From Scenedesmus sp. ARA3 (lineage: Eukaryota; Chlorophyta; Chlorophyceae; Sphaeropleales; Scenedesmaceae), in assembly GCA_004335835.1 (NCBI GenBank), contig RWJK01001243.1, positions 4,969 to 68,968 of the forward strand: DNA of 64,000 nt. Reading direction: 5' to 3'. Positions 11,001-35,400 of the stretch are shown piece after piece. Positions within the stretch are counted from its first letter, which is position 1; every line of letters begins with the position of its first letter. The notes under the pieces were generated by a model. That model ran no database searches. It was not told where the DNA came from and was given only the letters and a program-made list of their open reading frames with translations. The position numbers and the translations under genes are program-made.

Positions 11001-12595
11001 ATGCCACTGCACATGAGATGGATGCTTGGACATGCACATCCCACAAGTGCATACTGCGTTTTAATCACAGTCCCTGGGTGCTGGCATGAAGTTGCCTCAA
11101 AATTTCACCACCTGCACATGTGTGTTCACAGGATGCCTCTACTTTTCGAGTGAAGCTGGTTGCACTGGCGCAAGCGACAACATCACCATGGCAGTACGAC
11201 GAGTTTTTCAGCACCCCAAACATGACGGGTTGCGCAGCCCAAGTGGTGGACTGGTCTGATGTACTGCTCAACCTCACACAGTATGCAGATCCTGGCACCA
11301 GCACCTGCCCCCGCATAGGATACATGATAGAGTGCATCGCCGCTGTCAGCCCCTCACGCTACTGTACCTTCCGATACAAGTTGGAAGAGCTGGCCCAATG
11401 CGGCACCACAAGCACAGCAACAGCGTCCGGAAGCAGCAGTGCATCTCACCTAGACACGCCCGTAGGCAGCAGTGCTGCACAGCTCCCTGCTTCTCCACCT
11501 AGTACTGCTGGTTCCACAGCAGAACCCAGCTCCACACCTCAGCTAGGCCAGGCAGAGGCCGACGTGCCACCCTTGGCCAGTGAAGTTGACAGCCTGGACG
11601 CCCAACTGGCCTACTACTTTGCCAGCATTGGCAAGGCCGGCAACTTCAACATCACCAAGCAGCAGTGCCTGGCCCAGCCATTCATATTTGGCAACCTCAC
11701 ACTGGCCAGCGACCTGCCCCTGAAGTGTGAGGCCCTGCGCGCGTGCCTCAGCAGCTACCGGGTGTGGATGTTTCGTGGCGCAGCATGCAACGTGGCGCTG
11801 CTGTACACAACTGGAGGCAGCGGCTGCAGTGGCGGTGTGGGCACTGTCACCTGGAACTCTGACGGTGAGTGCTTGGCAGGTGTTCGTGCCATGCATGCTG
11901 TCCAGCAGTGGCTGCTGCTGTGTGGCTGTGACACATGCGCAAGTACAAGATGTGGGTGTGCTGTGTAGCGGTTTCTTGCTGAGGGTGTTTGCATATGATC
12001 ATCCTGCTGCAGCTGTTGATAGGCCTTGGGCAGCTGTGGGTGTTGTGACTGCGTTACTGTGCCTCCAGCTGTAGGAGGCTTGCAGGAAAGCCACTGGTGC
12101 AACAATGCTGAAACAGAAAGCGGCATTGTTCAGCGCTGCTTGCAGGACACCTCCCAATGCATGTAGCTGCGCATGTAGCTGTGACTAGATGGGAGAACTG
12201 CTTGCTGGCAGCTTTCCTGCAGGCTATGTGCTTGTGCTTGGCAGCTACGGCATCGCTGCATGAATTGAGGCTGCGATGCTGCTCTGGGCAAACTTTAGCC
12301 ATGAATCTGCTGGTAAATGTGTGGTGCTGCTGCTGCTGTTCTGTTGTGCCGCCTGCCAGGCACTTGGGGCGCTGTTGGGGTCTTCACAAACTCAATATCT
12401 GGAGTAACCAGCTTCTATGCAACCCGCAAGACTGCCAACGCAATGGATGTATCTGTGGAGATCAATGGGGGATGCCATGCCAAGTACACACCCTCAACTG
12501 GATTGATGCGCAACAACAACTCTGCAACCAGGTTATCCTGTGGTCTGCTGGGACTCAGTGCATTGATAGCTGTAGTTCTAGCACTGATGATCTGA
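8094..12595 (+). CDS. Tandem-module cysteine-rich secreted-type protein with GPI-like tail, family not recognised
   Basis: Exons: 8094-8251 (start uncertain), five module exons at 8333-8615, 8892-9457, 9698-10138, 10350-10895 and 11132-11864, and a last exon at 12360-12595. Junction phases agree except in the second module. The module pattern is FRVKLV..., Y.EEVFSTPN.TG..TQVVDW, YA.PG.STCP and C.Y.Y.EEL.QCG. It is followed by a Ser/Thr-rich linker and SNISTNCSC..C, with many N-X-S/T sites. Module exon 1 keeps only the linker half. The final exon ends in a hydrophobic run after NNNSATRLSCGLLGLSALI, which looks like a GPI-attachment signal. A surface or cell-wall role is inferred. No clear signal peptide was found in the chosen first exon; another ATG at 8074 opens a hydrophobic but soon-terminated frame. 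I do not recognise the family. Confidence 0.7.
8333..11864 (+). repeat. Tandem array of five duplicated module exons
   Basis: Units start at 8333, 8892, 9698, 10350 and 11132. Each intact exon starts and ends in phase 0 (441 and 546 nt for units 3 and 4), so a unit can be added or skipped without shifting frame. Flanking introns also share sequence, for example CACCTGCACGTGT.. before the acceptors of units 3 and 4. This indicates that exon plus intron were duplicated together. Confidence 0.8.
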
Positions 12596-14189: not shown

Positions 14190-16693
14190 TCAGTCGTCGT
14201 ACACCAGGCACTCTGGCTGCTCAGGGTTGCTGGCGCAGAAGTCCTCCAGGGGATCCCCGATCTTGGCATATGCCTGGTCCAGGGCAGCAGAGATGGCTGA
14301 TGCCACGGCCTCCATGGAGTGGTCACCCTCAATCTGCAGTGCATGTGCACGGCAGACGCAGCATGCAGTGAGTGAGTGGGTTTGCGTGTAATTGAGTGCT
14401 TGCCTCGTTCAAGGTGACACAGATGGCTGCAGGCGCGGCATGCATGAAGTGGCATCCCCAATGTGTTGCTTGCTCGCTCGCAAACAGGATGCATCAGATG
14501 GTGAGGGGATGCCTCACAAGCTACTGCCCAAACTACTGGTAGTATGTATGCTAATGGAGCGGTCTTGTCCCGTGCAAGCTGCATAGATGCTGGTGCTTGA
14601 CACAACACAGGACCCAGCCTGGTGCGAAAGCGAGAGCCAAGTCTGCTGCAACCCTCGCGCAAGACACTGCCACAAATGTGTGGTCCAGCACCATCACCCA
14701 CCTCGCACAGGCAATCCCTGTAGTACCCGATGACTGAGTCGACGTTCTTGAAGTGGGTCTCTAGCCGCGTCTTGCACTGCAGCCACAACCACCCAATGAC
14801 AGCAGCGCAGCAAACAGCAAAGCAGGGCCGTCAGCATATTCAGTCGCACATCGGCTGGTGTTAGCGGTGTTTGCCGGAAGCATGCTGGTTGCGTGCCTGC
14901 AGCGCTTGCATCCTGACTGCCGGCTTGTCCATGCATGAACAGGCTGTTCCTGCTGCAGCAGCGCATTGGCCTTTGTCTATCTGTCATTGCCATGCCTTGA
15001 GCCGGGACACAAACACACGCTCGAACCACATGTAACGACAGCATACACACATGTTAGCATATAGCAAGCAGCGCGCCCTCACCTTCTCCTCTGTGTCGTC
15101 GCTGCGCTGCTACAGCATGCATGCACCACCCCAACGCCTTGTGCCAACAACCCAGGCAAACAAGAAAACACGACTGGCTACAGTGGACTTTGCCGCACTT
15201 TCTCCTCTGCGTCGTCGCTGCGCTGCACTATTGTGCAGGCATTACCACCACCACCGCATCCTGCCTTGAACAATACACATGTAAGCTGAATGACACAAAT
15301 GGCCGTAGTATGGCTTGCCGCACCTTCTCCTCTGTGTCATCGCTGCGCTGCACCAGTCTGTCCATGATCTCAGCCGGAGGCGGCTTGTACTTGAGGTGGT
15401 AGATGGCACCTGTCTGTGGGTCCATGCGGCGGCCCACCACGCGCTCCACCAGCAGCTCAGCAGGCACCTGTGCGTTACAAATATGTTACATTGTTACAAA
15501 GGTGTTACACAAATTCAAGCAGATCAATCCAGATCGCTTCCCAGAGATGTATAAAATCACAGCTGCTGCAGCTGTGCATTTGCATACTGGCAGCCTACCC
15601 ACCACAACAACCAGCAGGCTTCTATGAGGGCACCCCAGTTCAAACAAGGATGAAAATCCAAGTATCAAATGCTTTTGGATAATAAGCTCACATCGATGAG
15701 CAGGAAGATGTCTGGCCGGATGCCCTCAGCCTCAATGGCCTCAGCCTGGCTGGCGCTGCGGGGGTAGCCGTCCAGCAGCCAGCCGCGCTGCTGCACGTCA
15801 TCACCCGCAAGCCTGCGGCAGCAGCAGCAGCAGCAGCAGAATGCAGTAGTGTCAGCAACGCGGGCCTTACGGATATGAGCAAGCACTGCTGAGCAATGCT
15901 CTGGGCAGAACGGTGACAGGCGGCTGCAGACGCTAAGAATGCGCCATGGCAGCTTGCAGTAGATGCGCCTGCCTGCCCGGCTACGCGGCTGTGCCCTCGG
16001 CCCTCCTGCTCGCCTGCCAATGCTGCGGTGCGAGTGCCTGCTGTTGCGCTGCTTGACACGCTACTACTCCTTGTTCTGCTGATGAGCCGTACAGTGGTGT
16101 TCATGACGCTACTGCTGCTGCCGTTGCACGGCAGGTGCACCTGGAGCCCATCATATCAGACAAGAAATGTCAGCCGCCCGCCTGCTGTGCATGCTGCTTC
16201 TGCTGTTGTTGCTGATGCAGCCGCTGCTGCCACTACCGCCGCTCCCACTGTGCATGCTGCTGCTGATGCTGCTGCTGCTGTCCCACCTGCTCTTGACCAT
16301 CTCCACCACCACCTCATCTGGCACCAGCACGCCCTGGTCCATGAAGTCCTTGGCCTTCTTGCCTGCAGGCGTTATGACAATGTTTTTACATTGTTGAGGT
16401 TGTAATACATTGTCCTAGGAGCTTTTGGTTGTCATGTAGAGCTGCAGCCACACTACATGTATGTCTCAAGAACCTTGCTGCCTCGGCTGCCAGTAACATG
16501 CATTTGCTGGTCTTGTTGCTGCACCTGCTGTGTTGAGCTGGCCTTGCTGACGGACACAAAGCGCAGCTGCCAGAAGCAGCTGCAGCACTGAACTTTTCCT
16601 TACTAATGGTTCAACACAACGCACCTGCGGGTGTGCCCTGCTGCACCTGCTCACGCAGCAGGTCTCCAACAGAGATGTGCACCAGGTTGAACT

Positions 16694-16750
<57 letters not shown>

Positions 16751-16800
16751 NNNNNNNNNNNNNNNNNNNNNNNNNNNNNNNNNNNNNNNNNNNNNNNNNN

Positions 16801-16863
<63 letters not shown>

Positions 16864-17649
16864 TGCATGCAGGGGTGCAGCAAATGTGCCAAAGTGAGAG
16901 TTTGTGATGCTCCTGTTGCTGGTGTATGTAGCTAAGTGCATGAGCTGTAGGGAATCTGGCTTTATTGAAGGGACGCTGCGTACATCAATCCAAGTGCAAC
17001 CTGCAAATCCATGGCAGCCTCGCCATGCTGCTCACACACTGCTATTGTGTATCCGCTGGGTGGCTGTGTGGTAGCAGGCTGCATGCACGTCCGCAGGTTG
17101 CATAGGGTGGGTCTGCAACGACAGCAGATGTCACTGCACAGGCGGCGCCTTTGGCTGGCTCTGCACTGACCTTGTCCACAATCTTCTCGCACTGTGTGCC
17201 CTTGCCAGCTGCTGGTGCTCCAGCGATCATGACGCGCAGCGGCCGCTTGGTTGTCGTTGCTGCATCAGCCTGCAAGCAGTTGAGGGGCAACGCACAATGT
17301 GTGTGCCAAGTGAGTGCCAAGTGAATTGCAAGCAGTAGACAGCAAGACCCAGAGGTAACTTGGCAGCTGCTGAGCAGCTCATTGGGGCCCATACAGGTCG
17401 CAACGGTACATATCCCATCAATGGAATCTTTTCCTGTGATCAGCTGTTTGTCCTGTGCGGAAATTCATGAGCAGATGATTTACCTTCACGACCAGGCAGC
17501 GGCGAGCCACGCGACCAGCACCTGCAGCACAATTTGCGTCAGCTTTCTGTCGCAATCAAACTAGATCTGCAGGTTAAACATGTGTACGTACGTGCACGCG
17601 CTGGGGCGAAGGCCGCCCTGCTGTATGTCCTCTGCTGGCAGAGCTGCAT
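14190..17649 (-). CDS. ADK: Chloroplast adenylate kinase with CP12-like C-terminal tail
   Basis: Nine exons join in phase to 273 residues: 17592-17649, 17484-17521, 17171-17269, 16625-16691, 16287-16362, 15692-15812, 15324-15467, 14702-14776 and 14190-14333. The enzyme interconverts 2 ADP with ATP and AMP. Visible features are an Arg/Ala-rich transit peptide starting MQLCQQRTYSRAAF, the P-loop GAPAAGKGTQCE, HISVGDLLREQV, the NMP and lid region LVPDEVVVEMV, DGYPRSASQAEAIE, and the lid RRMDPQTGAIYHLKYKPP. The last exon adds DPLEDFCASNPEQPEC plus LVYDD. This closely resembles the cysteine-pair C-terminus of CP12, as reported for Chlamydomonas ADK3. Such a tail can form a disulfide and bind GAPDH, which would link the enzyme to redox control of the Calvin cycle (inferred). 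The gene shares a 211-bp divergent promoter with the phosphatase to its right. Confidence 0.92.
15079..15356 (-). repeat. Three tandem copies of adenylate kinase exon 7 3' end plus splice donor
   Basis: The functional exon end encoding QRSDDTEEK and its GT donor lie at 15318-15356. Two further copies follow in the intron at about 15195-15228 and 15079-15110. Both still read (Q)RSDD(T/A)EEK followed by GTGCGG or GTGAGG. Donor spacing is 126 and 115 bp. Confidence 0.85.
15819..15839 (-). repeat. (CTG)n, sense, next to the adenylate kinase exon 6 acceptor
   Basis: Seven CAG triplets on the plus strand (CTG in sense), a few bases from the acceptor preceding 15812. Confidence 0.7.
16692..16860 (-). 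repeat. Long (CTG)n microsatellite with 50-N assembly gap, abutting a 3' splice site
   Basis: CAG triplets on the plus strand run into the acceptor of adenylate kinase exon 4 (exon starts at 16691). They are interrupted by exactly 50 N at 16751-16800. The N run is likely a placeholder for a repeat the assembler could not span, so the true length is unknown. The polyglutamine and polyleucine ORFs predicted here are artefacts of an intron. Confidence 0.9.
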
Positions 17650-17860
17650 TTACGTTTTTGTGTTGAGCAAGCTTCACAGCTGCTCCTACAATTGGGACGA
17701 GCCCTCGAAACCCGCTAATATCTGGTGATCTTTGGCAGTTGACACTAGGCACGAACCCCAATAACAAGTGCTCCGGCACTAGTGTCTCTTCGATCTTCTG
17801 CCTGGCCAGAAGGCTGGGTCCTCACGTCTGCTGCATGTGTGTGAGTGAACGCACGCGGCT
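17650..17860. promoter_or_regulatory. Divergent (bidirectional) promoter region
   Basis: 211 bp separate the adenylate kinase start (minus) from the phosphatase start (plus), so both promoters and 5' UTRs must lie here. I see no obvious TATA box. Confidence 0.5.
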
Positions 17861-19374
17861 ATGCTTTCAAGCTCAAACTCTGTCAACATAAGACGGTGCC
17901 GGACACTCTGCCCGCTCAACTGCAAGCTGCACAGGGTACCACTGCTGCAGACGATTCAAACAAGAACCATGGCAGCAGCAGCAGACTGCAAGTATGAAAA
18001 CAAGGCTGACTTCAACTTGGGGCCTACAACAGGTGATCCAGTAGGCAGAGGTCACTGTAAGAGCAGCACAAACCCTCCTGCTGCTGACTCAGCCCACATG
18101 GGTCGTGCAAAAGCAAGCAGCAGAACAGCACAGCCGGCCGCAGTAGATCAACACATCTGCACTGATAGATGGATCAGACTGGTTGATGGCAGCTACTCTG
18201 GCCCCATGAACATGCAACTGCTTGCAACAACCAACTCAGCGTACTGTTGCAGTGCACACAACTTGTCTGCACTGCACGCTGCATTGGTGCAGCCAACTGC
18301 ACCCTACTAGGATGCAGTGCCTCTCGTTGCAGCAGCGTGCTATGAAAAACAGTTACGCGGTGACATTCATACATGATGCACTGCAGCCGAGGAGGCCATG
18401 GTGTATGGCGCTGCCAGGCCTGGCGCAAAGCAGCAGAGGTGAGAGGCCATGCACATGTAAAAGGACGAAACTATACAGAAAATATGTGCGTGTAAGTCAG
18501 TTACTGGTGCTTGTTCTTGCCATCGAGATGTGGTGCAAAGCAGCTGCGGATTGCCTGATTCCGCCTCGCGCCAGCTGCCTAGCAAGTAACAGGTTCTGCT
18601 GAACACCTCATGCTGTGTGCTGTCTGCTGCTGTGGTGGTGCTGCTGCAGGTGCTACACGCCTGAGCTGAGGGTGACAGCGGATGAGGGTGAGCTACGGCA
18701 GCAGCAGCAGCAGCCAGCTGCTAGTTTTTGCCGCCGTTTTGGAGCTGCAGCAGTGCTGCTGAGGGTGTATGCACATGCAGAGGGAGTTGCCCATGCCTTG
18801 TTCAACTGCTGCTCTCTCTGTTTGCTTGCTGGTAAGAGCCGAGGTACACCAGCCAAGGACCAGCAAAATGAGTTAGCTGCTATTTGAATCCGATGAAGGT
18901 GTGAGGCGCTGCTGCCACTGTTGCTTGCTGCTGCTGCTGCTGTCGCTGCTGCTGCTGTTGCCGCTGCTGCTGTGCCGCTGCAGTTGCTGAGTGGGTTGAC
19001 GCAATCAAGGCAGTTGGCGTGACGCGCGTGGTCAGCATGCTGTCAGACTCAGAGCTGGTTACATATGCAGAGCCGCTGCCTGCAGCCATGGAGGCAGCTT
19101 TCGGCGCTGGCAAGTACATCAACATAAATGCAAAGGCACAAGGTGCGTGGCTGTTGTTTGCAATGGCAGCAGTGACGTGTTGCTTTCAGGTTGAGGAGCA
19201 AAGACGCTGCGGCAGCGCAACACCTGGTGTGAAGGCGTAGCTTGGTCCATGCTGACCTGCCTTGCGTGATTTGTGGCGAACACGCCACTGATAGATAGCA
19301 GCGCTGTCAAACAGCAGACTGTTTGCTGCTTTGCTGTCTGCGGTTGTTTGGTAGCGCTGCTCATGCTCATGTTA

Positions 19375-19415
<41 letters not shown>

Positions 19416-19956
19416 GCAGAGGGGCCAGCAGAGATCCTCAAGGCCTTGCAGGCAGCAACAGCAGCAGGCGACACAGTGAGTTCATGCTTGTACTCTGCTT
19501 CGCAGTCGACAGCACTATCGAGACAAGTCGCAGGCTGACTTGAAGTGCTGCTTGCATACTGCAGCTGGAGATGCGCACAACAGCTGATGCAATGCTTGCA
19601 GGACAGGGCGTCCCACCTAAAAGCGTATTCGAGGACACACAGCTCCAGCGTACAGCCCATTTGGCCTGTCTCCTGCTACGAACTCAACGCCCCACCAGCC
19701 ATGTGCTTGATTCATTGGCGCCTCAAAGGCTCTGGTGCCGCTGCTGCTGCTCATGCAGGCGGTGGTGCACTGCTGGGGCGGTGGCGGCCGCACCGGCATT
19801 GCACAGGCGGCCTACCTCATGGCATCTAAGGGTATGAGTGCAGAGGAGGCAGCAGAGGCAGTAGCCAGCTATGCAAAGGCACATGGGCTGTCACGGCGTG
19901 TGGATGTGGCTGCGCTGAAGGAATTTGCTGCAGCGGCTGGCGTAGCGAAGCTGTAG
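17861..19956 (+). CDS. Small tyrosine/dual-specificity phosphatase-like protein (CX5R)
   Basis: Six exons (17861-18056, 18387-18438, 18650-18687, 18984-19142, 19420-19475, 19759-19956) join in phase to 232 residues. Recognisable blocks are FNLGPTTGD, MVYGAARPG, CYTPELRVTADEVAEWV, GVTRVVSMLSDSEL and the P-loop VVHCWGGGGRTGIA. The P-loop places the nucleophile at Cys172 and the arginine at Arg178, the CX5R signature of cysteine phosphatases. The C-terminus is helical and Ala rich. The first about 35 residues (MLSSSNSVNIRRCRTL..) could be an organelle-targeting peptide; a second Met at residue 37 is an alternative start. The join between exons 1 and 2 is the least certain. The substrate is unknown. 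Confidence 0.8.
19378..19413 (+). repeat. (CTG)12 at the 3' splice site of phosphatase exon 5
   Basis: Twelve CTG triplets in sense orientation, followed by CCGCAG and the exon at 19420. Confidence 0.85.
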
Positions 19957-20051
19957 GTGGTGGCAGTTGCTGCTGCTGCTCATGTAGGCTGTTGTCGTGG
20001 ATGTGGCTGCGCTGAAGGAGTTTGGCAGCAGCTGGCGCAGAAAAGCTGTAA
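19957..20051 (+). repeat. Partial tandem duplicate of the phosphatase 3' end
   Basis: The segment around 19996-20051 repeats the last coding block (GGATGTGGCTGCGCTGAAGG, then ..GCTGTA) that ends the gene at 19956, with small indels. Its end supplies TGTAA at 20047-20051, a possible poly(A) signal for the gene itself. Confidence 0.7.
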
Positions 20052-20639
20052 ACTATTGTTGCTGCCTGTCAGGCTGTAGTCATAGGGCATACAGCTGGGT
20101 GATGTGCGGGTTTTGGCGGCAATTCGCGGGCTGACGCTGTCATAAAGTCGTTTGAATGCTACCAGTGCCACGCATCTGGGGGCAGACATCAACAGGCCAT
20201 AGCGGCTTTTTGTTGGCGTGGCTGTGCATCGCAGGATAGGTGTTATGTGCGTGGGGCGCCGCTCAGGGCAGTGCAGTACGTGCCTCTAAATACCGTACAT
20301 GAGAATCGTGGCGTGCGCGGTGTGCATAGTGTCAAATGGTTATGGCCTCTGCATCTTGTGGCTTTGGACCCCATGTGCGTCATGAGTCAATTAACTGCAG
20401 TTGCTGCCAGGACCTGCTTGTAAGCCCCTCGCATCACAAATGTTCTGGCACCTGCTGCACCTGCCAACCACCCTCTGCGCTCTCCCAAGGTTAACGAGTG
20501 CACAGCCCCAGCTGACTTCAATTGGGATCATTTGCAAACGACAGCCGTTTACAGCCACTGCTCTGCCAACGGACAGGCTCCATGCCACACAAAGCAGACC
20601 TTCGACACCACAACCGCGCAGCGGTAAAAACAAGCGCGC

Positions 20640-21339
20640 AGCGCTTTCTCTGCCCCTGTCGCAGCACGGCCACACGCCCTCTACTGCAGCAGGCGGCGCC
20701 GCGGCCACCTACTCCATCTCTCCCACAAGCTGCGGCACCCCCATGCATATGGTCACATATGCCATGCATGTGGTGTCACATATGCCATGCACTCGAATCG
20801 AATAATTTCTGACAACATATCAACCTAGTCATTGCCATGGTGCCAGGTGCCACTGACTGGCCTCGATTGGCACCGACTGCAATTTGCAGGTGACACCCTG
20901 ATTCAGTCTGCTTCAGCACGCCCACACTCCCTCCACTGCAGCCGGCAGCACCACCGCCACCTGCTCCATCACCCCAACCCTCTGCAGCACCCTCACCCCC
21001 TTGCCTGACGGCGGTGCAGCAGGAAACATGCTGCCAGTCAAACAGCCTTCGTGCAGCCCTCCACTGCAGCAGGCAGTGCCACCTCCGCCTGCTCCATCAC
21101 CCCGACCCGCTGCAGGACCCGCAGGCATGCCTGCGCAGGTGGCGTTGCATAGTCACCCAGCTACACATGCTGCCAGTCAAACAGCCTCCGCCAGCACGCC
21201 CACACGCCCTCTACTGCTGCAGGCAGCACCACCTGTGCTTGCTCCATCACCCCAACCCGCTGCAGCACCCTCACACCCTTGCCTGAGGGCAGTGCATACT
21301 CACCCCAGTCAGCACATGCTTCTAGGCAAACAGCCTTCG
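20640..21339 (-). repeat. Degenerate copies of the cyclase C-terminal coding block
   Basis: The cyclase end at about 21340-21440 (GKGVRVLQRVGVME.., LPAAVEGVWAC) recurs downstream in sense. Copies lie at about 21195-21290, 21055-21130, 20922-21010 and, decayed, 20640-20745. The copies at 21195-21290 and 20922-21010 still have the same open frame. They may be 3' UTR sequence or alternative terminal exons. The region 20052-20640 to their left shows nothing else. A TGTAA in sense lies at 20549-20553. Confidence 0.75.
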
Positions 21340-22724
21340 TCAGCATGCCCACACTCCTTCAACTGCAGCTGGCAGCTCCACAGTCACCTCCTCCATCACC
21401 CCAACCCGCTGCAGCACCCGCACACCCTTGCCTGACGGCGGCGCAGCAGGGAACTGCCGACCACGCAGCACAACAGGGCTGAAGCACACCATCTCAACAG
21501 GCTTAGGACTCCCTTTAAACATGAAGGAGCCTAGCCAGCTGCACTCAACAGGCACTGCTGCTGCTGCTGGTGCTGCTGCTGCTTGGTGTGCATTGTCCGG
21601 TGTGCCGTCAATGACTGCAGCCAGGCTGCTGCTGCTGCTGGTGGTGAGCGTGCTGCTGCTGCGCCAGTGCTGCAGGATGCTTGCAGCCAGGGCTGTGTCA
21701 GTCACCACTTGGCCACCATGCGCTGCTGCGTCAGCATACCTGCAGGGCAGCAGCGCAGCACAGCAGATATCAGCCGAAGTGTTGACATTACACGCCAAGG
21801 TGAAGCAGCAGCCTAAAAGGTGGCACACTGCAAGTTGGTTAACATAGTAGTGCAACAAAGTTCAAGGAGCTTGCCACAACACTTTGCACCCCCTGCCGAT
21901 GCAGCTCTCAGCTGGACCGCCTGCATGCATGTTGCATAGGCTGCATTGCTTCACTGAAAAACCCTGCGCACCTGGCTGCTCTGTTGACAAAGCCGGCATG
22001 GTAGTCAGCCCTGCACCCAGCGCAGCAGACACCGCACAGAGCAGCAGCACAAACAAGACTCTGTTCAGCAAGTTGGTGAACGCGCAGCAATACTAGGACA
22101 CAGTAGTGGCAGACATTGGTACAGGATCAAGAACGCACTTACAACGAACAGGAAGAAGGCAATAGCTCGGACAGCACCAGCACCGCCACCAGCAGCACTG
22201 CAGCACCATCGCCAACAGCAGCAGCAGCAGTACTAAGGCCTCTCACCTGCCAAGGTGGTCAGGCAGGATGCATGTCGGCACACCCTCAGCAAGACCCATC
22301 TTGAACCTGCGGCGGTGGCAGCAGCAGCAGCGGCAGCAGCCGCAGCAACATCATGTGCCTTAGACACAGACACAGACACAACACAACAATATTCCCTGCT
22401 TGTTTGTCTCTGTGTGCGAAGGCAGCACCACCACACGTGCTTGCATGGTCAAACCCAGACCAAACGGCGCTTGGGGCCTGCATGCCACCTGGAATTCCTG
22501 AACAGTGCCGGCCTTTGCTGGCTAAGCAGAGCTGCCCGCCTGCTGTGGGTGTTGATGTCAACAGCATGTTGCCAACAATAGGCATTGCCACACTAATCCT
22601 GGGTGTGCACACCCACCGCGGCCCCCTGAAGACCAGCCGCCCCGCTGCGTCCAGCTGCACGCCGAAGGCGGGGAAGCGCAGCAGCTCGTAGGGGAGCGGC
22701 AGGTACAGCGACGCCTCCTGCAAC

Positions 22725-22761
<37 letters not shown>

Positions 22762-24639
22762 GTTATAAGGCTGGAAGGAGGCATGAGCGCCTATAGCTTC
22801 TGCTAAAACCGTTGCTGACAACGATGCTGCCTGCAACCAGGAGAACCCCATGCTGCTGCTGCATCCGCCACATTCAATGCAGTGCTCTGTGCAGACACGC
22901 ACATCCACAGCTACTGCTGCACCCGTTACACACCCAACAACACCCAACACACTCCCTCGGCACACCCATTGCACACTCGTTACACACCCAAGACACACCC
23001 GTATCAAACCCGTATCACACCCTCTCACCTGCACTCTGAGGCACCACGCTGTTGCTGCAGCCGGTGTGGTGAATGCACCACATCCACATTACTCAAGGCG
23101 TAAAGTACCAAAAATACTCGAATCATGCCCAATGCAACAACCCTCACCTGCGATGTGAGGCACCACGCTGTTGCTGCAGCCGGTGTGGTGAATGCACCAC
23201 ATCCACATTACTCAAGGCGTAAAGTACCCAAGATACTCAATCACGCCCAATGCAACAACCCTCACCTGCACTGTGAGGCACCAGGCTGCTGCTGCAGCTG
23301 GTGTGGTGAATGCTGCCAGGTAGCGCAGCTCCAGGCACAAGCCCTGAGAGACATCAATAAGTTCATGCACTGCTGCTCCTCTTGTACGCTCTCACCTGCA
23401 CTGTGAGGCACCACGCTGCTGCTGCAGCTGGTGTGGTGAAAGCTGCCAGGTAGCACCACTCCAGGCACAAGCCCTTAGATGCATACTGCTGTTCATGCCT
23501 GCTACATCCTCTATGTACCCTCTCATCTGCACTGTGAGGCACCACGCTGCTGCTGCAGCTGGTTTGGTGAAGGCACCACATCCGCATTACTCAGGGCGTA
23601 AATGACTCAATCACGCCCAATGCAACACCCTCTCACCTGCACTGTGAGGCACCATGCTGCTGCTGCAGCTGGTGTGGTGAAGGCGGCCAGGTAGCGCAGC
23701 TCCCCTGCCTGTGCGCGAATGAGGTAGCTGCCTGGGAAGTGCCGCAGCAGCTGCAGCATCATACGGTGCAGCGCCACGTGCACAGACCTGCGGCAGTACA
23801 GCAGCAGCAGCAGCAGCCAAGGAGGAACCAGAGGCAGGGGAGGCAGACAGTGTAAAGCAGCGGGCCGCAGGTTTATCGCGGCAGCATACTTGGTGTACAG
23901 GCAGTGTGCAGGCAGATATACGGCCATGTACAAATTTGTTATTCGTTCACCTTGCCCGCGCAGGGTGGCCTGACAGCTGCCCCAAACCCTCTACAAGATG
24001 CTGTTATCACTGCACTCAAGCCCCTGCTCATAAGCAACACTCTGCAAACTGTCGGCTCACCTGGCCAGCGCAGGGTGGCCTGACAGCTGCGCCACTCCCT
24101 CCACAGCAGCAAACACAATGCTGACCTCAGGGAAGCGCAGCAGCCCAGGACCCTGCATCAGCCGGCCATCAGCAGACGCTGCTGCAGCAGCAGCATTCAC
24201 AGCAGCCTGGCCCTGTGGTTGTCCAGGACTCGCCATGGCTGGGCGTGCTGCTCCTGTAAGTGAGAACATTGCGAGGCTGCTTGCTATGCTGCTGGCTGTT
24301 TCAAGGCTGCTGCGGGGTTTCTGCTGCTGCTGCTGCTGCTGCACTGGTGACATGACACGTGACGCGTCTGCAGCTGGGGTGCTGGTTGCTGCTGCTGCTG
24401 AGGTGTTGTCAAGTGTGCTGCCGCCGCCGCTGCTGCTGCGGCGCACGGAAGGTGAGGCGCTTCTGGCCCTACTTGGGCTGCGCGTGTAGGTTGGTGCGGC
24501 AGGCACTGCAGCAGCAGCAGCAGTGCTGCTGTCCAACACTGGTATGCTACTGATGTCCGAGGTTTGGCTGCTGTGGTTTGTGATCTGGCTAGGCGCAGCA
24601 CGCGGCTCCTGCAGGCAAGTTGGGGTGCCGGGCCTGAAC

Positions 24640-24685
<46 letters not shown>

Positions 24686-27600
24686 GACTGCTGAGTGTGC
24701 CAGCAGCATCTGCTGCTGATGCTGGCCAGAGTGTTGACCTGGTGACCTCCTGCTGCTGTCGTTGCACTGAGCTAGACAGCGCATTGCCCGGTGGACCACC
24801 CGCAGCAGCGGCGGCAGCAGCAGCAGCGGCGCTGGCAGCCGCAAAGGGCGACTGCCGAGCCAGCGCAGCAACGGGGCCTGTTGCTGCATAACCAGCCGTT
24901 CCAATTGCTGTTAGAGAGGTAGCAGGGCCAAACGCACTGCTGCTGCTGCTGCCGGACCCTGCTGTTGGCTGTACTGCTGCTGCTGCAGCAGCTGGTGGCG
25001 ATGGTGGGGGTGTTGGTTCTTCTGCGCCATTTTGAGGGACCATGGTGACGAGGCTTTGACCAGACCTAACAACTGGCAGCCTCCCTTTGCTGAGGGCTCT
25101 CAGTGTAAGCAGGTCCTCCTCCTTTAGGTGCTGTTGCCGCTGCCACGGCTCCCCTGCTGCTGCTGCTGCTGCTGCCCCTGCTGCTGCTGTTGGTTGTGAT
25201 AAGGTTGGTGAGAAAGGTGGCAGTGCTGGTGCTGGTGCTGATGCAGGTGACAGGGGTCCAGAGGGTGCGGCGGCGAGCAGCAGCTGCTCGGACGGTTCTG
25301 TTAGCAGCAGGGAGCTGTCTGAGGCGGCGCTGATGCTGCGAGAACTCAAGCCGGGCGCTGCACATCAACGCAGCAAACATGAAGATATGTGATGCAACGC
25401 CTGGAGTTATCGAGAGTAGTTTTGACCAAGATGAACAATGACTGGCGCACCAAAAACATGCACAAGCAATCACGCGGGTGAGCTAGGGTGACAAATCCTG
25501 ACAAATTAAGCAGCTGAAGCTGAAGCTGCAGCAATCACTGCACTGACAAATCCTGGCAGTCAAGCAGCTGCAAGAAGCAAGCCAGTCCTCACCATCAAAA
25601 TAAGCAGGGTCAATACAACGCCAATGCGCAGGCAGGGCCAGCTTGCAGCCAAACAGTGCCGCCCTGCCCACCAGGCCTGGTGACACAATCTGGTACAGCC
25701 GGATGCTTGGCGGCAGCAGCTGCAGCAGCGTGGTGATGTTCAAGCTGCTGCTGTTGCTGGTGGCTTCCAGGGGACTGGGGTTGCTGGGGTTTGCTGCTGC
25801 AGGGGTGTCCCACTCTGCAGGAGCCTCCAGCATGCTGTAGCACGACAGCAGCAGGAGGCACAGCAGATGTATCAACAGTATGGTGAGTCAGCTGCAGCAA
25901 TGCAAAGCATGCTTTCTGTTGTGATCATCGCACATTATGTGCTTTACAGCTGTTGCAGATGCGGCGCTGTAGCATGCCACAAACCCGCAGGAGCAGCACA
26001 TATAAGACCGAGCCGGCAACACCATTTGATCTGCAACCGCCAAGACAAATGAACTGCGAGAAACTACTTTTATCCAGAAGCAAAACGTGTGTTGCTGACT
26101 CACCTGTCACCATGCAGCGCTTCTTCCACCACACCCACACCAAACACGCCACTACAACGTTTTCTCGCTGCAATCGTAAGCACATTCATGTTATGTGCGC
26201 CTACCCACCTGTCAGCATGCAGCGCTTCTTCCTCCACCACACCTACTCCAAACACGCCACGCGTCAGCTGCTGCCACCAGCCGCGCGGCCGCCGCACCGC
26301 AGCCACCCTGCGGCTGCTGCTGCTGCCGCTGCTGCTGAGGCTGCCCTTGCGCCACTGCTGCTGCTGCTGCTGCTTGCTGCTGCTGACACCTAGGCCAAGC
26401 CCTACTAGGGTTAGGCTGTTGCGCCTGAGCCCTGCCAGTGCAGCAGACATTGATGGCTGCCTATTGACCATGCTTGATGTTTGCATGCCAGCCGTACTCC
26501 TGCTTGGCCGACGCCCTGCATAGCTGACATTGCCTGCAGGCAGCAGATCATCTGGCTGCTCCAGATCATAGTCAGTGGCATGCTGTGCTGCTGCTGCTGC
26601 AGCAGCAGCAGCAGCAGCAGCACCTGCAAAGCTGCCGTTGCCATTGCCAGCCAGCTGTCCTTGCAGGTACTGCTGGTACTGCTGCACCAGTCTGCCGCCT
26701 GCCTCCCCTGTCCACAGCACACACATGCTGCTGCCAGTGATAGCCACTGCTGCTGCTGCTGCTAGTGAGGATGCAGCGGTGTTTGCAGGTGCTGTTGGGG
26801 GCATAATCTCATAGCAGCCCATGTCCAAGGTGACTGCATGCTGCTGGGATGCATCAGCTGCTAAATGCGGTTTGCCATCAGCGGCGTGGAAGGAACCCCT
26901 GCAGGGGTGGAAGCGATTAGTCATGAGGAAGCAGAACACACCGCAAGGAGTTGGGCTGGGTTTGGCATGCTGCAGTAAACAGCATCCGCATCCATCGGTT
27001 CATATCAAGCTCTTTAAGATGATTGCACAGGCAGTCAACAGGGCACCTAGAGAATTCATCACTCTGTGTGTGCTTGGCACTCGCCAACATGGCAGTGGTG
27101 CACACTGCAGCCACTGATGACCACAGCCCACTCACCCTCTGCTGCTGCTGAAGATGCGGCTCAAGAAGCGAGGCGACACGCCGCCGCTGCTGCTGACGCC
27201 GCTGCCGCTGGGCCGTCTGCCTCGCTTGCTGCTGCTGTGCTTATCTTCATGCTTGCTGCTGCTGGCGTAGAGCTTGTCATAGTCGAGTCCATCTGCTGTG
27301 ATGAGCCCCAAGCGCCGCATGCCTTCCTTGACTGCTGAAAAGGTTGGCTCATCCAGCAGCACTTGGCCGCCGTTGGCTGCGTTGGACACGTCTGTTTGAT
27401 TGGATGTGGGTGGGCGGGTGGGCAGCAGAGCAAGGACACAGTGGGAAGCAGGGAGCACTCAGTTATCAATGCGCTGGTTGCAAAAATTGGCTCATGCAGC
27501 AGCACTTGACCGCCATTGGCTGCATTGGACACATCTGTCCAGCTGCAGTGGTGTGGGTGCGCAACAGCAAAAAGGATACAGGTACAATCGTGGATGAGCG

Positions 27601-28866
27601 AGTCAATTGCGCTGGCGTCTGAGTAGTATTGAGGCAGCACCTGGCCGCCATTGGCTGCTTAGAACACGCCTGTCGAGTTGTGGGAGCGTTGCGGGAGGAC
27701 AGAGTGACGATGGGCAGCAAATCAAGAAAACAGTAAAGACCAGTACAGAGGTCGCCAAGGGAGCGGCACTGGCTAGTGCTGGTTGCACTGGTAGCGCACA
27801 GATGGCAGCTGTACAAGCGCAAAAGCCAGCGTTTCTGCTGAGCGTGCTGCTGTTGCTGACCTTTGACACTTAACCAGCAGAGCACGCATGCCATATATCA
27901 AGCCACCTGGCCAACCTTCTGCATTGCAAGCGGTTAAACGCCCTCTGTTGGCATGCATTCCACGCAGCTGCGAGCTCACCTTGCGCCGTCTTGTACACAG
28001 CCGAGTTCTTCACCTCACGCCCTTTAGCCACCACGCCCGTAGCCACCCCCATGCGCACCCGCAACCCCCTGAACAGCACCCCATGCACCCCACCCTGCTG
28101 CAGCAGCTGCTGCTTCTGCCTTTGCCACAGGAGCATCAGAGCAAACATGCAGCACACCAACCCACTAGCCACCTTCTGCACTGCAGGCTGTTGCACATTT
28201 TGATTTTATGCGTTCCATGCAGCTGCAAGCTCACCTTGTGCAGTCTTGTACACAGCCGAGTTCTTCACCTCGCGCCCCTTTGTCACCACGCCAGTAGCCA
28301 CACCCATGCGCACCCTTAGCCCCCTAAACAGCACCCCATGAACCCCACCCTGCTGCAGCAGCTGCTGCTGCAGCCAGCTGTTCTCTCTCCGCTGCCGCAG
28401 CCAGCCAGGGAAAAAGCTGCCGCTGCTGCGCGCCCCATGTGCATTACTGCTGAGGCTTGCGCCACTGCCCGCACCGTCACTTTGCCAGAAAGAGTGAGAG
28501 CGCAGCTTGGGCAAAGTGTGAGAGCGCCAGGGGGACCCGGAAGCTGGCCCTGCAGTGCGCCCTGCTGCTGCTGCAGCAGCAGAGGGGTCTACAGCTGAGG
28601 CTGAGCTCCTGTCAGGACCACTGTCAGGACCAGTCTGATCAAGCTGGCTGGCAGAGACAGATGGCAGCCTGCTGTCAGGCCCACTGTCAGGACTGCTGTC
28701 AGGCCCAGCCTGCTGTGACATATGGATAGGCAGCCCTCTGGCTTCTGCAGCAGAGTCAGCTTCAAGATCTGCTGCTCCTGCTGCTGCTGCAGTGTGTGAC
28801 ATGGGGCTCAAGATGCGCAGCCAATTCAGCCCCAGCTCCATTGAAGTCCTTGAGCCAAGTGGCGCA

Positions 28867-28900
<34 letters not shown>

Positions 28901-31900
28901 GCTCTGGGCTGTGTGGCTGGTCGCTGCCGTGCCTTAGAACCCCTGCAGCTGCTGCTGCTGGTGGTGGTGATGTTGCTGCAGGGGCTGGCAGCTGCAGCTG
29001 CTGGTTGTGCAGTAGCGATGATGGGGCCTCCCATGAGTCATGGTAGGTCATTGAGGGAGGCCAGGACTGCTCCAGTAGCGCCTGCTGCACCTGCGGGGGT
29101 GTGCATAAGAACAGACAGCCATAGCGGCGCTTAGTTACACACAACATACACAAGCCACATTTGACATGGTAGGACATTGAGGGAGGCCAGGACTGCTCCA
29201 GCAGTGCCTGCTGCACCTACAGGGACGTCAGTAACAACAGACAGCACTGCGGTGCTTAGTTACACACAACATACACAAGCCACATATGACATGGTAGGCC
29301 ATTGAAAGAGGCCAGGACTGCTCCAGTAGTGCCTGCTGCACCCGCAGATATGCGAAGGCACAGCAGGTGCAGTGCTTCAGAGGTGTAACTACAAACAACA
29401 CAGACGCAATTGTAGTGACAGCAAGGCATAGCCTTCTGCAAAAGCACAACAAGAGGAACTACACTGAAAGTGCAGCTGCACCCCAAAAACTTCATTCAAA
29501 CTGTGAGCTTCACGCCGTGAAGGTCGAATGGTCATGCAGCTGCAGCACACAGGCCACCACTTTTTCCAGCTCGTGGAGGCAACACTACAACTGAAAGAAA
29601 ATGAAGCAGCGACCTCACACACTGTGAACTTCACGATGTGAGTTTTAAAGTGTGAAGTTCACACACCTGCAGCGTGAAGGCCACTGCGTCCTCCGGCTCG
29701 TAGAAGCTCACAGTGAAGCTGTCTCCCTCCTGCTCCAGCACATAGCCAACCTGGTCATACACGGCACGCTTGATCACCTGGTTGTGCAGCAGCAGAGCCT
29801 GCAGCAGATGTGCGGGGCAGGGCAGTGATTGGGCAAGGTGTTGAACTTGCGCAGGCTTAGTTTGCGTCAATGTGTGCAGGCAGAACAACGCATGCTCGAT
29901 CACTTGGTTGTGCAGCAGCAGCGCCTGCAGCAGATGTGTGCAGCAAGGCAGAACACAAACCGCAGCATGTCCAGCCATGACATGCTCTGTGGATGCAGGC
30001 GATATGCAGGGACAAAGGAGCAATCTTGAACGCTTGTAACATGCTGGGTTTGATTTGCAGCAGGGCCGCACACAAACCGCAGCATGTCCAGCCATGATAT
30101 GCTCTGTGGATGCAGGCGATATGCAGGGACAAAGGAGCAATCTTGAACGCTTGTAACATGCTGGGTTTGATTTGCTCTTTGTGCCAGTACATGTGCAACA
30201 GAAAGGCAAAGCGGAAACAGCAGTCACCCAGCAAGCATCTTAACTCAATAGCACTCAGCATCTGTGGACATTTGGGAGCAGCAAGTGCAGTCTCCACAGG
30301 TACTGGGCTAAGTAGTAATACCATCTACTGCCACTCTTGCATAGGTCTGGTGGTCGCACTTGTGAACACCAACACTTGCACCAGACCTGTGTGAGAGCGT
30401 AAGCATCAAACATGCCTGTGCCATGTGGTTGCGTGCGTCATTAGTCAGCATGGTGTAGCCCTGGTTGTGGGTTACCGTACAACCAGCAACACAGCAGAAC
30501 ACGACAATTGAAAGACAACATTGAGCATCCAGATGCATCACGACCTGCGCCATGTCGTCGGGCTCGTCATTTGTGAGCGTGTGCTTCTGGATGTTAATCA
30601 CCACACAACAGCAAGACAGTAGAGCACAAGACTATGGTGCGAACTTCCATACCTGTGCCAGGTCGTCGGACGCGTCATTAGTCAGCATTGAGTACTCCTG
30701 GATGCTGGTCACCACACAACCCACAAGACAGCCGAGAACACAATTACTGTTCACCCTTCCACACCTGCGCCATGTCGTCGGGCGCGTCATTGGTCAGCGT
30801 GGAATAACCTTGGATGTCAGTCACCACGATACTCATGCGCCCGCTGCGGGGCGGCCCCAGCGCGCGCTTGCGCTGCTGCCAAATGAGCGCCGGCAGCCGC
30901 GAGGCCTTGCGAGAGTAGGCGCGCGCCAGCTGCAGCAGCAGCAGCAGCAGCAGCAGCGGCAGCAGCAGCAACAGCGGTAGCAGCAGCAACGGCGGCAGGA
31001 GGAGCAATGGCGGCAGGAGGAGCAGCAGCGGCGGCGGCAGCAAGTGTATGTTCTGCTTGCATTGAGCAGCATGCTGGTTGCCAGATCAGCGCCGGCAGCC
31101 GTGAGGCCTTGCGGTGTAAGCGCGCACGAGCTGCGGCAGCAGCAGCAGCGGCAGCGCCGGCGGCGGCAGCGGCAGCGGCGGGTGAGGTGGTCCCCTTGAG
31201 GTGCACAGCATGCACAGCATGCAGAAAGGAAGAACAACAGCAGCAAGCATCACACAGCAGAAGAGCACTCACACAGTAGCAAGGCAGCGTCTGCTGTCAG
31301 CCAGCCTCCAATCAACCCCACACATGTGCACACAACCTAGACTGCAGCAGGCCAGGCACAAAGCAGAGCAGCAGCTGCAGGTAAGCTACAACCCCCAAAC
31401 TTCCAAAATATGCTAAATTACTCACCAGCCAGGCCATGAGTGCCACCACCAGCACAGGCACCACCACAGCCACTGCCACCCTCCATGCCACGCCTGAAGA
31501 GCCGGAGGACTGCGCTGCTGCTGCTGATGCATTGGTGCCCACCACTGTACGGCCCGACATGAGGCCTGCTGGAGCACTGCTGCCTACGGGAAGCAAATCA
31601 TTGGCGCACAAACGCGGTATTCAGCGGATAGTAAAACTGTTGTACAGGAGGTATGCACATGCGCGGTTGACAGCAGTCGTAGCGGAGACTCATTCTATAT
31701 ACAAGTGACAGGAAGCAGCGGGTGGTGGCGCAAGCCTGGCGGAAGCACCATACGGTTTGTAGGACAGTGCTGGTCCCCGTTGATTACTTGTGCTCACAGC
31801 GCTGCTGGCCTGACATGCAAGCTGCATGGCTGACACCCGGCAAAGTTGTGACACAGACACAGTAGTTGACTGCAACATAACACCCTCAGCTACACAGATG

Positions 31901-32436
31901 TGCAGTCACAGCCACCAGCAGTCCACACAGGCAGCCAGAAGTTGCCACTCAGCAGCGCTTACTTTGGCAGATGAAAGCAGCAGGCTTGGCACAGTCAAAG
32001 TACCTGGCAGCAGCCAACAACACAGGCAACAGGGCACAGCAGCAGTGGATGCTGACCTGATCAATATGCCTTGCATTATGCATGGTGACAGGACACAGAC
32101 CGCAGTTTGTATGCTGTAGACACTTGACACTGCAGCACTCGGCACAGCCTCCTGAACAGCACATTGACCCCATCTCAAAAACAGCATTCCTGCTGATCCT
32201 AGATCATGTTTGCGTCAGTGTGCATTGAGCCAAAACTTATCACTCGATGCTTCTGTCTCACAGGATGTCTCAGGTCGCTGTGGCACAGGAGCTGTGACTG
32301 GTAGTAACACCTGCACAGCACGCACCAAATGCCAGGCAGGTATGCTGCAGGGTCATATGCCTCCTGCGGCTGGGTGGGTGGCATCTGCACCAGCAGCCGC
32401 CCACACACCAACTTGGCACTCTCGGGAACATACTGC

Positions 32437-32475
<39 letters not shown>

Positions 32476-35400
32476 GCAGCAGAGAACCTTCACAGGCTGC
32501 TGCTGAGCACACGGCAGGAGAGACCCGTTTCCAGCCGCTGGCTCAAAATTGCATGTGTAGCAATACCTGTAGCACTTGATTGAAATTAGATGCACAGATT
32601 ACATTCATTCCAAAAGCCTCTGCTCAAGCAACCCCACCTGCTGGTTCCAAATCAAAGCGTGCTCTGTCCACACCGAGAGCAGCCCTACTAGCCCCGCTGC
32701 TCAGGGTCATTGCCAACATTCAACACCTAAGCCGTCCCCAAGCAACCCCACCTGCTGGTTCCAGATCAAATCGTGCACTGTCCAAACAGAGGGCAGCCCC
32801 ACCAGCCGCCGCAGCTGCCACTGCTCCACAGGCTCCCCATCAAGCCACTTGAGACTGGCCCCAGGTCCCGTACAACAACCTTAATCAACCGCTAGCTCCG
32901 AGTCTTGCAAGCAGCTTGCAGCACCAGCACTTTCTGCAATCTACTTTCCCATGCTATGTTCAATTCAAAAAAAAACTGTCCCCAATCACCGCGAGCAATT
33001 CACCTGCTGATTCCAGATCAAATCGTGCACTGTCCAGACAGAGGGCAGGCCCACCATCCGCCGCAGCTGCCACTGCTCCACAGGCTCCCCATCTAGCCAC
33101 TTGAGTGAGTTCTCAGGGCCCGTACAACAGCCTTTTTGAAACCGCTAGCTCAGAGTTTTGTAAGCAGCGCGCAGCACAGCGCTTTGCTTGATGTATACTG
33201 TCAAGTCACCTGCGGTCTACAGAGCTGTCGTTAGTCATTGCCAGCAATTCACCTGCTGGTTCCAGATCAGATCGTGCACAGTCCAAACAGAGGGCAGGCC
33301 CACCAGCCGCCGCAGCTGCCACTGCTCCACAGGCTCCCCATCAAGCCACTTGAGTGAGTTCTCAGGGCCGGCCTGGCTGTTGGGCTGCCGCTGCTGCTGC
33401 TGCATGCGTGGCAGCTGGGAGCTGAGCTGGTCCAGCTGCTGCGTGGAGACACCTGCACAGTTGTGTTGCATAGCAAGGTACAAAACGTAGCATGAAGCAA
33501 AGTGGGGAGAGCAGAAATTGTATATAAGTGGGAGCCGGCGGTTGTGATGGCCAAGCATGCTGCATGTATGGCGGCGGTAGGCATTACAGCAGCATCAGCC
33601 ACCATGGAGATAGTGCACAGCCACAGTTGCTGTCATTCTAAGAATGTCAACATCAGCTGAGGAAATTCCCGCTTGCACAAGATTGCTGCCAGTTGCATGG
33701 ACATGCCCAAACAGAAGCCGCTGCAAGCGTAAAAACCCACCGCCAGGCTCTGCCGCTAGCCCCGTGTGGTTTGGCGCGGCAGGGTTGAACATGGTGTTCA
33801 CACCCATTGCCCCGATCCACGCAGATTGCACGGCCGTCTGCGTTGGCAGCGTCTGCAGCAGCGAGCGGTAGGCCTCATCTAGCGATGGCCTGTCATCCAG
33901 GAGGGCCAGGCTGCCATTTGGAAGCCTTTCGCATGCTGCGCTGGCTTCGTCGAAAGTGACGCGCTCCGGGAACAGCGTGTAGAAAGTGCCATCCATGGAG
34001 GTAGTTTTCACAGCAGGGCCTGCGCAGGTGAAGGCTAAGTTCAGCATAAATGATGTTGATGTGGGTGGCGACAACCTTACACTGCCTATGTTTTTGTGGT
34101 TGGCGCACCAGGCGCCGCAAAGTACCCCAGCAGCCAACAGCTGCCCCTGCTGCTGTTCCAGCAACTGGGACCTGCTGCTGCTGCTTGCTGCTGCTGCTGC
34201 TGCTGCTGCTAATGATGATGCACAGCGCCTGCTCAGTCTGCTCTGCAAGCTGTTGTACGCCCTCAGTCAGTGCCGCTGCTGCTGCGCAGCCACACCGCCT
34301 GTTGCGTAACATGCCCCATATCATGTATCACAACTCACTCAGGATTAGCCCCAGCTGCCTCCAGTCCGCCAAGTTGTCAAAGCAGTCCACCTGCACAGCA
34401 GCCAGCACCAACAACACACTCGCTCTCCAATTGCGCTATTCTCATTCAGCACATGCTGTTGTCCAACCCCCCCCTCCCACCTTGGTTGCAGCTGCACGCC
34501 AGCGCTTGGCAAACCATCATCATGTGCAAGGGAGAGGCTTGAGTGCTGGTTCCCGTCTGCAGCAACTACTGCATGCAAAACACGAATATGAAAGCTGCAT
34601 TGGAGCATGTCGTCCAAGCCTAGGTGTACAGCTTCACGTAGTTCAGCCAAGTAGGATACTGCTAACCACCTGCGAGTCTGGGATCCATATGTCCTTCTTA
34701 GGCGGCCCTGTCCATCCATTCTGGCCCTTGAAGGGGTCTGCCTTCACAAAGCAGTTGAAGGGAGCAACACCGGTTGACCCTGCAAGAGTGTTGCGTTGCA
34801 GTGCAAGGAGCCGCAGGTGAAAAGAAGTCCAGGTTGCAAGTTTCATAGGCACTACTCAGGCACTACTCTGGAAGCTGGCCTGTGCTTGCAGTTGGCTGCT
34901 TGGCAAAGGCTGCAGCTGCTGGTCAAGTGCACTTTGCGTGTGTGTGGCGTGGCGCACCTGGCTGTGCTGCCACGTAGGTCCAGATGGTGCAGGCGCTGGT
35001 GTTGGCACACAGCGCGTCACAGTCCGATGGCTCCTCAATGTCCTTAGTGTACTGCTGGCTGTTAGTGACACAGCAGGTTAAAAGTAACACAAAAGGCAGG
35101 AGAGAAAAGCAGCAGGCGGTATGTGTGTGGCTGTGCATCTTGCATGCAGTGCCGTTATGCTTGCTGAATTGGAACGCAAGCTTGCTCTAGCAGGTGTTGC
35201 ACATGTGATGTGCAGCTGTATCGCTTGGCTATCTGTCACACAAATGTCCAGCCTGCACTGTAGGCAAGTGCACATCTTGTATTCTGGAGCTCCTGACTGA
35301 CTGGAAGAACCCTAGGTCAACAGGAATTCCAGCTGGCGCATATGTGCTGCAGCTGTGTGGCGCTCACTCACAGGTTTGTCCCAGCCACGTCTGTGCCAAA

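Follow-up and report, generated by a model that had tools for sequence, protein, structure and literature searches.

Tandem duplications of about 120 bp at exon-intron junctions in the genome of Scenedesmus sp. ARA3

The DNA analysed here is a stretch of 64,000 nucleotides of contig RWJK01001243.1 (positions 4,969 to 68,968, forward strand) in assembly GCA_004335835.1 of the green alga Scenedesmus sp. ARA3, referred to as the window. It contains an adenylate kinase gene and a long gene on the minus strand, which we take to encode a cyclase, and the introns of both genes carry extra copies of the adjoining exon edges. Analysis of the window and of further stretches of the same assembly shows that units of about 120 bp spanning exon-intron junctions are duplicated head to tail, that the exon part of the duplicated unit is on average far better kept than the intron part, and that the differences between copies follow codon phase. 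The duplication of exon edges is genome-wide and uneven between genes, and is not local to these two genes.

Exon-edge copies across the sampled assembly

The sample consists of the window and 18 usable of 19 further stretches (about 160 kb) of one assembly of 87.27 Mb in 1567 contigs, and amounts to 224 kb in total, or 0.26% of the assembly. Most of the further stretches are from fixed positions in evenly numbered contigs; L018-L020 are the right neighbour of the window, and L031 and L035 were picked as carriers of other cyclases. L017, which is masked throughout, was left out, L034 is roughly half masked, and L001-L016 stand outside all counts. Runs of the trinucleotides CAG, CTG and GCA (poly-Ala, poly-Gln, poly-Ser) are abundant in exons and introns throughout the sample, and required masking. 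By protein similarity, the sampled alga is Tetradesmus obliquus or a very close strain (Sphaeropleales). The adenylate kinase of the window matches T. obliquus OEZ85_013152 over the whole query at a tool-reported identity of 100%, with one residue different by eye, and a valyl-tRNA synthetase (ValRS) encoded elsewhere in the assembly is 99% identical to T. obliquus OEZ85_004004 at 95% query coverage.

Genes were modelled ab initio by a self-trained gene finder, which gave 236 introns with the donor AG/GTGAG and the acceptor TGCAG/G. The version used is stricter than an earlier one, which drifted to GC donors and micro-exons and was replaced. When its models are compared with ValRS, 17 of the 18 predicted exons match T. 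obliquus protein P0131, and the 18th is an intronic copy of a neighbouring exon; the last matching exon is covered in part by P0131 and at full length by P0132.

At a score cut-off of 40, 46 of the 454 exon edges (24/229 donor, 22/225 acceptor) have a copy in the adjoining intron, whereas none is found in 1362 controls, in which the same edges were searched in other introns. Duplications straddling splice junctions are thus too frequent for coincidence, as a preliminary description of the window had held. They affect 39 of the 236 introns. Fifteen of the edges are in the window, all between 15323 and 33252, where about a dozen borders had been described; the rows at 21063, 21203, 23265, 23343, 30652 and perhaps 21387 involve copies modelled as exons, and the distinct real edges number about ten. 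The same description had proposed an active process local to one gene, but the other 31 of the 46 edges are outside the window and 13 of the 19 stretches examined contain edge copies (the window, L018-L021, L024, L026, L027, L030, L031 and L033-L035). The census found no edge copies in L022, L023, L025, L028, L029 and L032, with 4-16 predicted introns each. Genes are affected unevenly (heterogeneity p=0.0014): ValRS (in L033) has 8 such edges in 17 introns, and others have none in 16 or 13.

The spacing of single units over the whole sample has a mean of 122.2 bp (standard deviation 14.5, range 91-150, n=57), when the 13 of 70 spacings above 160 bp, 8 of which are 225-252 bp, are left out. The spacing given previously was 103-140 bp, or about double. 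Steps within arrays are regular (e.g. 126/251 and 147/295), and 22 of the 46 edges have at least two copies. The k-mer spectrum of the 224 kb peaks at distances of 100-150 bp and 220-270 bp, besides short-period repeats below 60 bp. The repeated part comprises about 25-145 bp of exon edge, typically 25-80 bp, together with the splice motif.

Repeat loci were counted after removal of those self-BLAST pairs (11 of 98) that had a short internal period. They are located at exon edges in 47 cases, only in introns in five and between genes in four, so that 47 of the 52 genic loci are at edges, in a count that merges neighbouring events and takes an intron-only unit beside an edge (e.g. 29939-30175) as edge. 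If a unit of 100-145 bp were placed at random, with no fewer than 25 bp on either side, an edge share of 0.22-0.36 would be expected. Placement at random relative to splice sites, which the preliminary description had named as the outcome that would speak against it, is therefore not what the 224 kb contain. Edge and intron-only duplications are about equally detectable in simulation (370/1220 and 422/1327 in one of three settings).

Arrays in the adenylate kinase and cyclase genes

The arrays in both genes, including the repeated C-terminal block of the cyclase gene, are detected by self-BLAST and TRF (Tandem Repeats Finder) where they had been described. Tandem copies in the adenylate kinase gene extend over 15077-15353 and involve one exon.

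15324-15467, minus strand: adenylate kinase exon with copied 3' edge, real donor side (gene model; residues 154-203 of P0001 map here)
15193-15231, minus strand: first intronic copy of the 15324 exon edge, 125 bp downstream (self-alignment, edge census, protein P0001)
15071-15110, minus strand: second intronic copy of the 15324 exon edge, at 241 bp (self-alignment, protein P0001)

A search of the assembly for the adenylate kinase family matched, within the contig of the window, only the window's own gene; paralogues or further loci are elsewhere. Contig C988 (L001-L004) has two sets of adenylate-kinase-like exons at a distance of about 1.4 kb, which represent a separate tandem duplication of a gene or domain.

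The cyclase label is assumed from the preliminary description, from a resemblance by eye to class III cyclases, and from distant relatives, some of which carry PF00211. A Pfam scan of two pieces of this gene found no family at 1e-3. The search of the assembly for the cyclase family gave no match inside the contig of the window, and its loci are elsewhere. Tandem copies extend over 20.9-33.4 kb (self-BLAST and TRF). On the minus strand, exon tails with CAG/GTGAG-like donors recur downstream and exon heads preceded by CAG recur upstream.

33253-33369, minus strand: cyclase exon 3' edge, real copy (self-alignment, gene model)
32625-33120, minus strand: the 33253 edge repeated three times in the intron, at distances of 249, 501 and 615 bp (self-alignment, edge census)
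31079-31178, minus strand: the 30929 exon's 5' edge, repeated about 201 bp upstream in a CTG-rich copy (self-alignment, edge census)
30765-30827, minus strand: cyclase exon 3' edge ('DIQGYSTLTNDAPDDMAQ'), real copy, directly joined to the 29798 exon in the relative P0123 (self-alignment, sequence reading, protein P0123)
30411-30715, minus strand: three intronic copies of the 30765 edge, of which 30653-30697 is mistaken for an exon by the gene model
29939-30175, minus strand: tandem duplication of 117 bp, 96.7% identical, wholly intronic, adjoining the 29798 edge copy (TRF, self-BLAST)
29890-29951, minus strand: the 29667-29798 exon's 5' edge, repeated 126 bp upstream (self-alignment, edge census)
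29165-29345, minus strand: 5' edge of the exon that starts at 29090, copied 126 bp and again 251 bp upstream (self-alignment, edge census)
27835-28375, minus strand: duplicated unit of 260 bp over cyclase exon edges (self-alignment)
27479-27680, minus strand: 5' edge of the exon that starts at 27376, copied 143 bp and again 278 bp upstream (self-alignment, edge census)
26098-26155, minus strand: the 26209 exon's 3' edge, repeated 105 bp downstream (self-alignment, edge census)
23947-23995, minus strand: the 24061 exon's 3' edge, repeated 110 bp downstream (self-alignment, edge census)
23637-23787, minus strand: cyclase exon with its real donor at 23636 (sequence reading, gene model)
23017-23574, minus strand: five intronic copies, d1-d5, of the 23636 edge (self-alignment, array comparison)
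20904-21454, minus strand: repeated C-terminal block of the cyclase gene, in units of about 128-149 bp (TRF, self-BLAST)

The unit at 29939-30175 looks young and is suitable for reading the duplication breakpoint.

The copies seem not to be translated, and there is no sign in the proteins or the spacings that they serve as alternative splice sites, as had been suggested. The protein comparison covers ValRS, adenylate kinase and the cyclase exons joined in P0123. P0131, from another T. obliquus assembly, and P0132, from a transcript-derived relative, hold each real ValRS exon once and skip the copies; P0001 likewise holds the real adenylate kinase exons once without copies, and P0123 joins exons corresponding to those of the window cyclase with no copy between them. 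Annotated copies were also sought in eleven proteins, including T. obliquus cyclases, which provided no informative case. It had been stated that many copies keep reading frame and a GT or AG. Among the best copies, GT is retained at 18 of 24 donor edges and AG at 21 of 22 acceptor edges. In the sense of spacing, the statement on the frame is unsupported, since the nearest copy is a multiple of 3 away in 14 of 46 cases, as by chance. Frame-preserving use of the copies was rejected. An in-frame stop is present in 4 of the 70 copies. The alignments mostly cover parts of exons, and complete duplicated exons with their own acceptor and donor, used in mRNA, are not what these copies represent.

Other repeats in the sample differ from this class. 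Several direct repeats at 8444-11445 of the window, 0.6-2.3 kb apart and about 70-90% identical, are unlike the 120-bp units, and a perfect 18-bp minisatellite of 3.9 copies is present at 42260-42329. A perfect 27-bp tandem array is located within a predicted intron at 6798-7019 of L024; four of its five pairs were removed by the internal-period filter and one was retained as an intron-only locus. Positions 1-2563 of the window encode predicted proteins on the minus strand, which by eye we take to resemble hAT-type transposases.

Decay of the copies and its possible causes

The 40 exon bases closest to the junction show an identity of 0.85-0.91; just beyond the splice motif, identity falls to about 0.60 at donors and about 0.70 at acceptors, with a baseline of about 0.52 for unrelated sequence. 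The exon and intron parts are 0.911 and 0.653 identical, respectively, for all 46 edges, and 0.912 and 0.678 identical for the 31 edges with a spacing of at most 160 bp, whereas simulated neutral duplication leaves an intron identity of 0.77-0.78. When the exon identity is at least 0.92, the intron identity is 0.647 (22 edges) or 0.666 (the 14 near ones), as compared with 0.85-0.88 in simulation. Two intronic copies of one edge are 0.861 identical in the exon part and 0.581 identical in the next 40 intron bases (25 pairs, chosen by exon similarity).

The mismatches between exons and 70 copies fall at codon positions 1, 2 and 3 in 67, 54 and 198 cases, respectively. The ratio of nonsynonymous to synonymous substitution rates (dN/dS) between copy and exon is 0.22 (bootstrap 0.16-0.30, or 0.16-0.29 in a second run), as compared with 0.52-0.60 in simulation, and is little changed without the window (0.20, 31 edges). 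It is 0.21 (0.15-0.29) for the 30 copies with a spacing that is not a multiple of 3, and 0.29, with a wide interval (0.16-0.44), for the 17 copies that have lost the splice dinucleotide. Because dN/dS is low also where the spacing breaks the frame, the codon pattern is unlikely to result from translation of the copy itself. In 22 polarised arrays, the changes unique to copies number 25, 26 and 57 by codon position (53 synonymous, 54 not), and those unique to the exon 4, 2 and 20. Duplication at random places followed by neutral decay fails on placement, on intron decay and on codon phase.

The explanation to which we lean, with confidence a little short of even, is that duplications of about 120 bp straddling the junctions are followed by re-templating of their exon part from coding copies, including diverged alleles. 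The exon part would remain similar enough to recombine because one copy is always under selection as the working exon, while the intron part would drift. Unequal exchange or gene conversion would then re-template the exon-edge copies and add or shuffle units, and no splicing function would be required. One lineage has one working copy at a time, so that neutral copies should give a dN/dS of about 0.5 or more; a lower value suggests that both lineages have been coding for most of their separation, which, for neutral copies, only allelic exchange would allow. Part of the exchange is supposed to occur between diverged alleles, because a T. obliquus strain is described in PMC12636532 (citing Biondi et al. 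2024) as diploid with extensive heterozygosity. Exchange restricted to the exon edge is hinted at most directly by the 23017-23703 array. There, the real edge, d3 and d4 are each followed by an intron block of type X, d1 and d2 by type Y, and d5 by type Z, in the order X Y Y X X Z. Copies d3 and d4 are 0.92 identical in the intron and 0.89 identical in the edge, and the real edge and d3 are 0.96 identical in the edge and 0.67 identical in the intron.

Several observations weigh against this explanation. The direct evidence for exchange is thin, as it consists of two variable sites in this one array, which place d3 and the real edge together, apart from d4 and d5, while a third site groups d3 with d4 and d5; sharing between d4 and d5 by another route would fit as well. 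The mosaic runs test, applied to 18 copy pairs, counted 59 runs against an expectation of 64.5 and did not reach significance (p=0.098). Allelic exchange needs a synonymous divergence (dS) of about 0.23, while ValRS is 99% identical in amino acid sequence to that of the other T. obliquus assembly, and a ValRS piece of 712 bp occurs only once in the assembly. The units at 2331, 6642 and 7706 of L033 and 6704 of L019 differ little in identity between exon and intron parts, which is what plain neutral duplication predicts; in these comparisons, the intron columns of long alignments include columns of edge aligned with edge between copies. Plain duplication likewise predicts the three copies at 6583-7060 of L033, with homologous, decaying intron parts. 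The gene models are predicted and self-trained, and a few edges of the window are mis-modelled. The simulation, which used the same alignment and counting, covers donor-side units only and sets dN/dS of the working exon at 0.08.

An assembly artefact, in which the two alleles of an exon edge in a heterozygous diploid are joined end to end, with an overlap near the read length, at places with similar exons and different introns, is unlikely but is the rival with the best standing. It predicts edge placement, an allele-like codon pattern, unalignable introns, a spacing close to the length of short reads, and uneven occurrence in homozygous and heterozygous regions, such as that seen among genes. 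The diploid, heterozygous strain described in PMC12636532 would fit, and the UTEX 393 short-read draft, which differs in size from the present assembly, was gap-filled and merged from two assemblies (PMC5255914). However, joining two alleles cannot produce multi-copy arrays, many of them regularly spaced, such as are present at the 22 edges with at least two copies, nor the edge with five copies and alternating intron types. Moreover, exon edges about 10% apart probably have too few common k-mers for merging, the decayed ValRS copies, with a stop or several residue changes, are unlike a living allele, and the 712-bp ValRS piece is single-copy.

It is improbable that the copies have a function of their own, such as that of regulated decoy exons or alternative exons, for which purifying selection maintains them. 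The dN/dS of 0.22, the peptide left unchanged by some copies (e.g. 21 of 21 residues at L033 3566-3504), the almost complete retention of AG and a dN/dS slightly lower where the splice dinucleotide is kept (0.18 versus 0.29, with overlapping intervals) would fit such a function. However, dN/dS is unchanged where the spacing breaks the frame, GT is lost in 6 of 24 cases, and the copies are skipped in P0001, P0131 and P0132. In addition, the in-frame stops make up 4 of 117 nonsynonymous changes, with a neutral share of 5%.

We consider it quite improbable that duplication is mutationally targeted to exon borders, for instance by nucleosome edges or by structures formed in replication or transcription, and that the duplicates then evolve in the way outlined above. 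The edge share of 47/52 would exceed even generous corrections for survival, and the unit length is narrow, with a median internal exon of 159 bp in the gene models, near nucleosome size; targeting alone, however, leaves dN/dS and intron divergence unexplained. Plain random tandem duplication with neutral decay, in which constraint on the working exon alone makes the edges appear preserved, fits L033 6583-7060 and several units with nearly equal exon and intron identity, but fails on intron identity, dN/dS and edge share in the simulation and placement tests, and is very improbable as the sole process.

Relation to known systems and significance

The intron-gain model based on tandem duplication of AGGT-containing sequence, to which the preliminary description referred, is related to the present pattern but is not the same. 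As described in PMC4974935 for the potato RNA-dependent RNA polymerase (RdRp) case, it likewise involves short intragenic tandem duplications with splice signals. Here, in contrast, existing introns lengthen while the spliced product is unchanged in the genes checked, and the junction region, not the exon interior, is duplicated, at about 10% of the sampled exon edges.

Tandem and mutually exclusive exons also repeat exon sequence within one gene, but the copies here are mostly partial exons and are absent from the proteins checked. Gao and Lynch, cited in PMC4974935, reportedly described, in 2009, internal gene duplication and tandem exon duplication, including mutually exclusive exons. The exon-edge arrays are head-to-tail arrays of similar units of at least 10 bp, and in this respect are minisatellites; they have two to six copies and regular spacing in common with these, but their position is tied to splice junctions and their homology is concentrated in the exon-derived part. 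As in concerted evolution, the copies are more alike than the age of their flanks predicts, both relative to the simulation and in the 23017-23703 array, where the similarities of the blocks conflict. Unlike in concerted evolution as usually understood, the homogenised block would be a coding exon edge, and its partners would be non-coding and in the same intron. In the open-licence literature, no title or abstract describing splice-junction copies in Tetradesmus or other algae was found.

As a broader proposal, which we put forward only tentatively, exon edges would act as homology anchors maintained by selection, and unequal exchange, also between diverged homologues of a diploid alga, would copy them into the neighbouring introns, about 120 bp at a time. 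Untranslated intron sequence would thereby keep a codon-phase signature and store old exon alleles genome-wide. If the pattern is real, duplicated splice-junction sequence accompanies approximately one in ten exon edges of this alga, and gene prediction would be confused by the copies. Introns would then grow stepwise and contain cryptic splice sites ready for intron gain or alternative splicing, and both intron lengthening and splice-site gain would be measurable by comparison of strains already sequenced. The copies would also be a natural record of exchange between coding and non-coding sequence, which could date old alleles.

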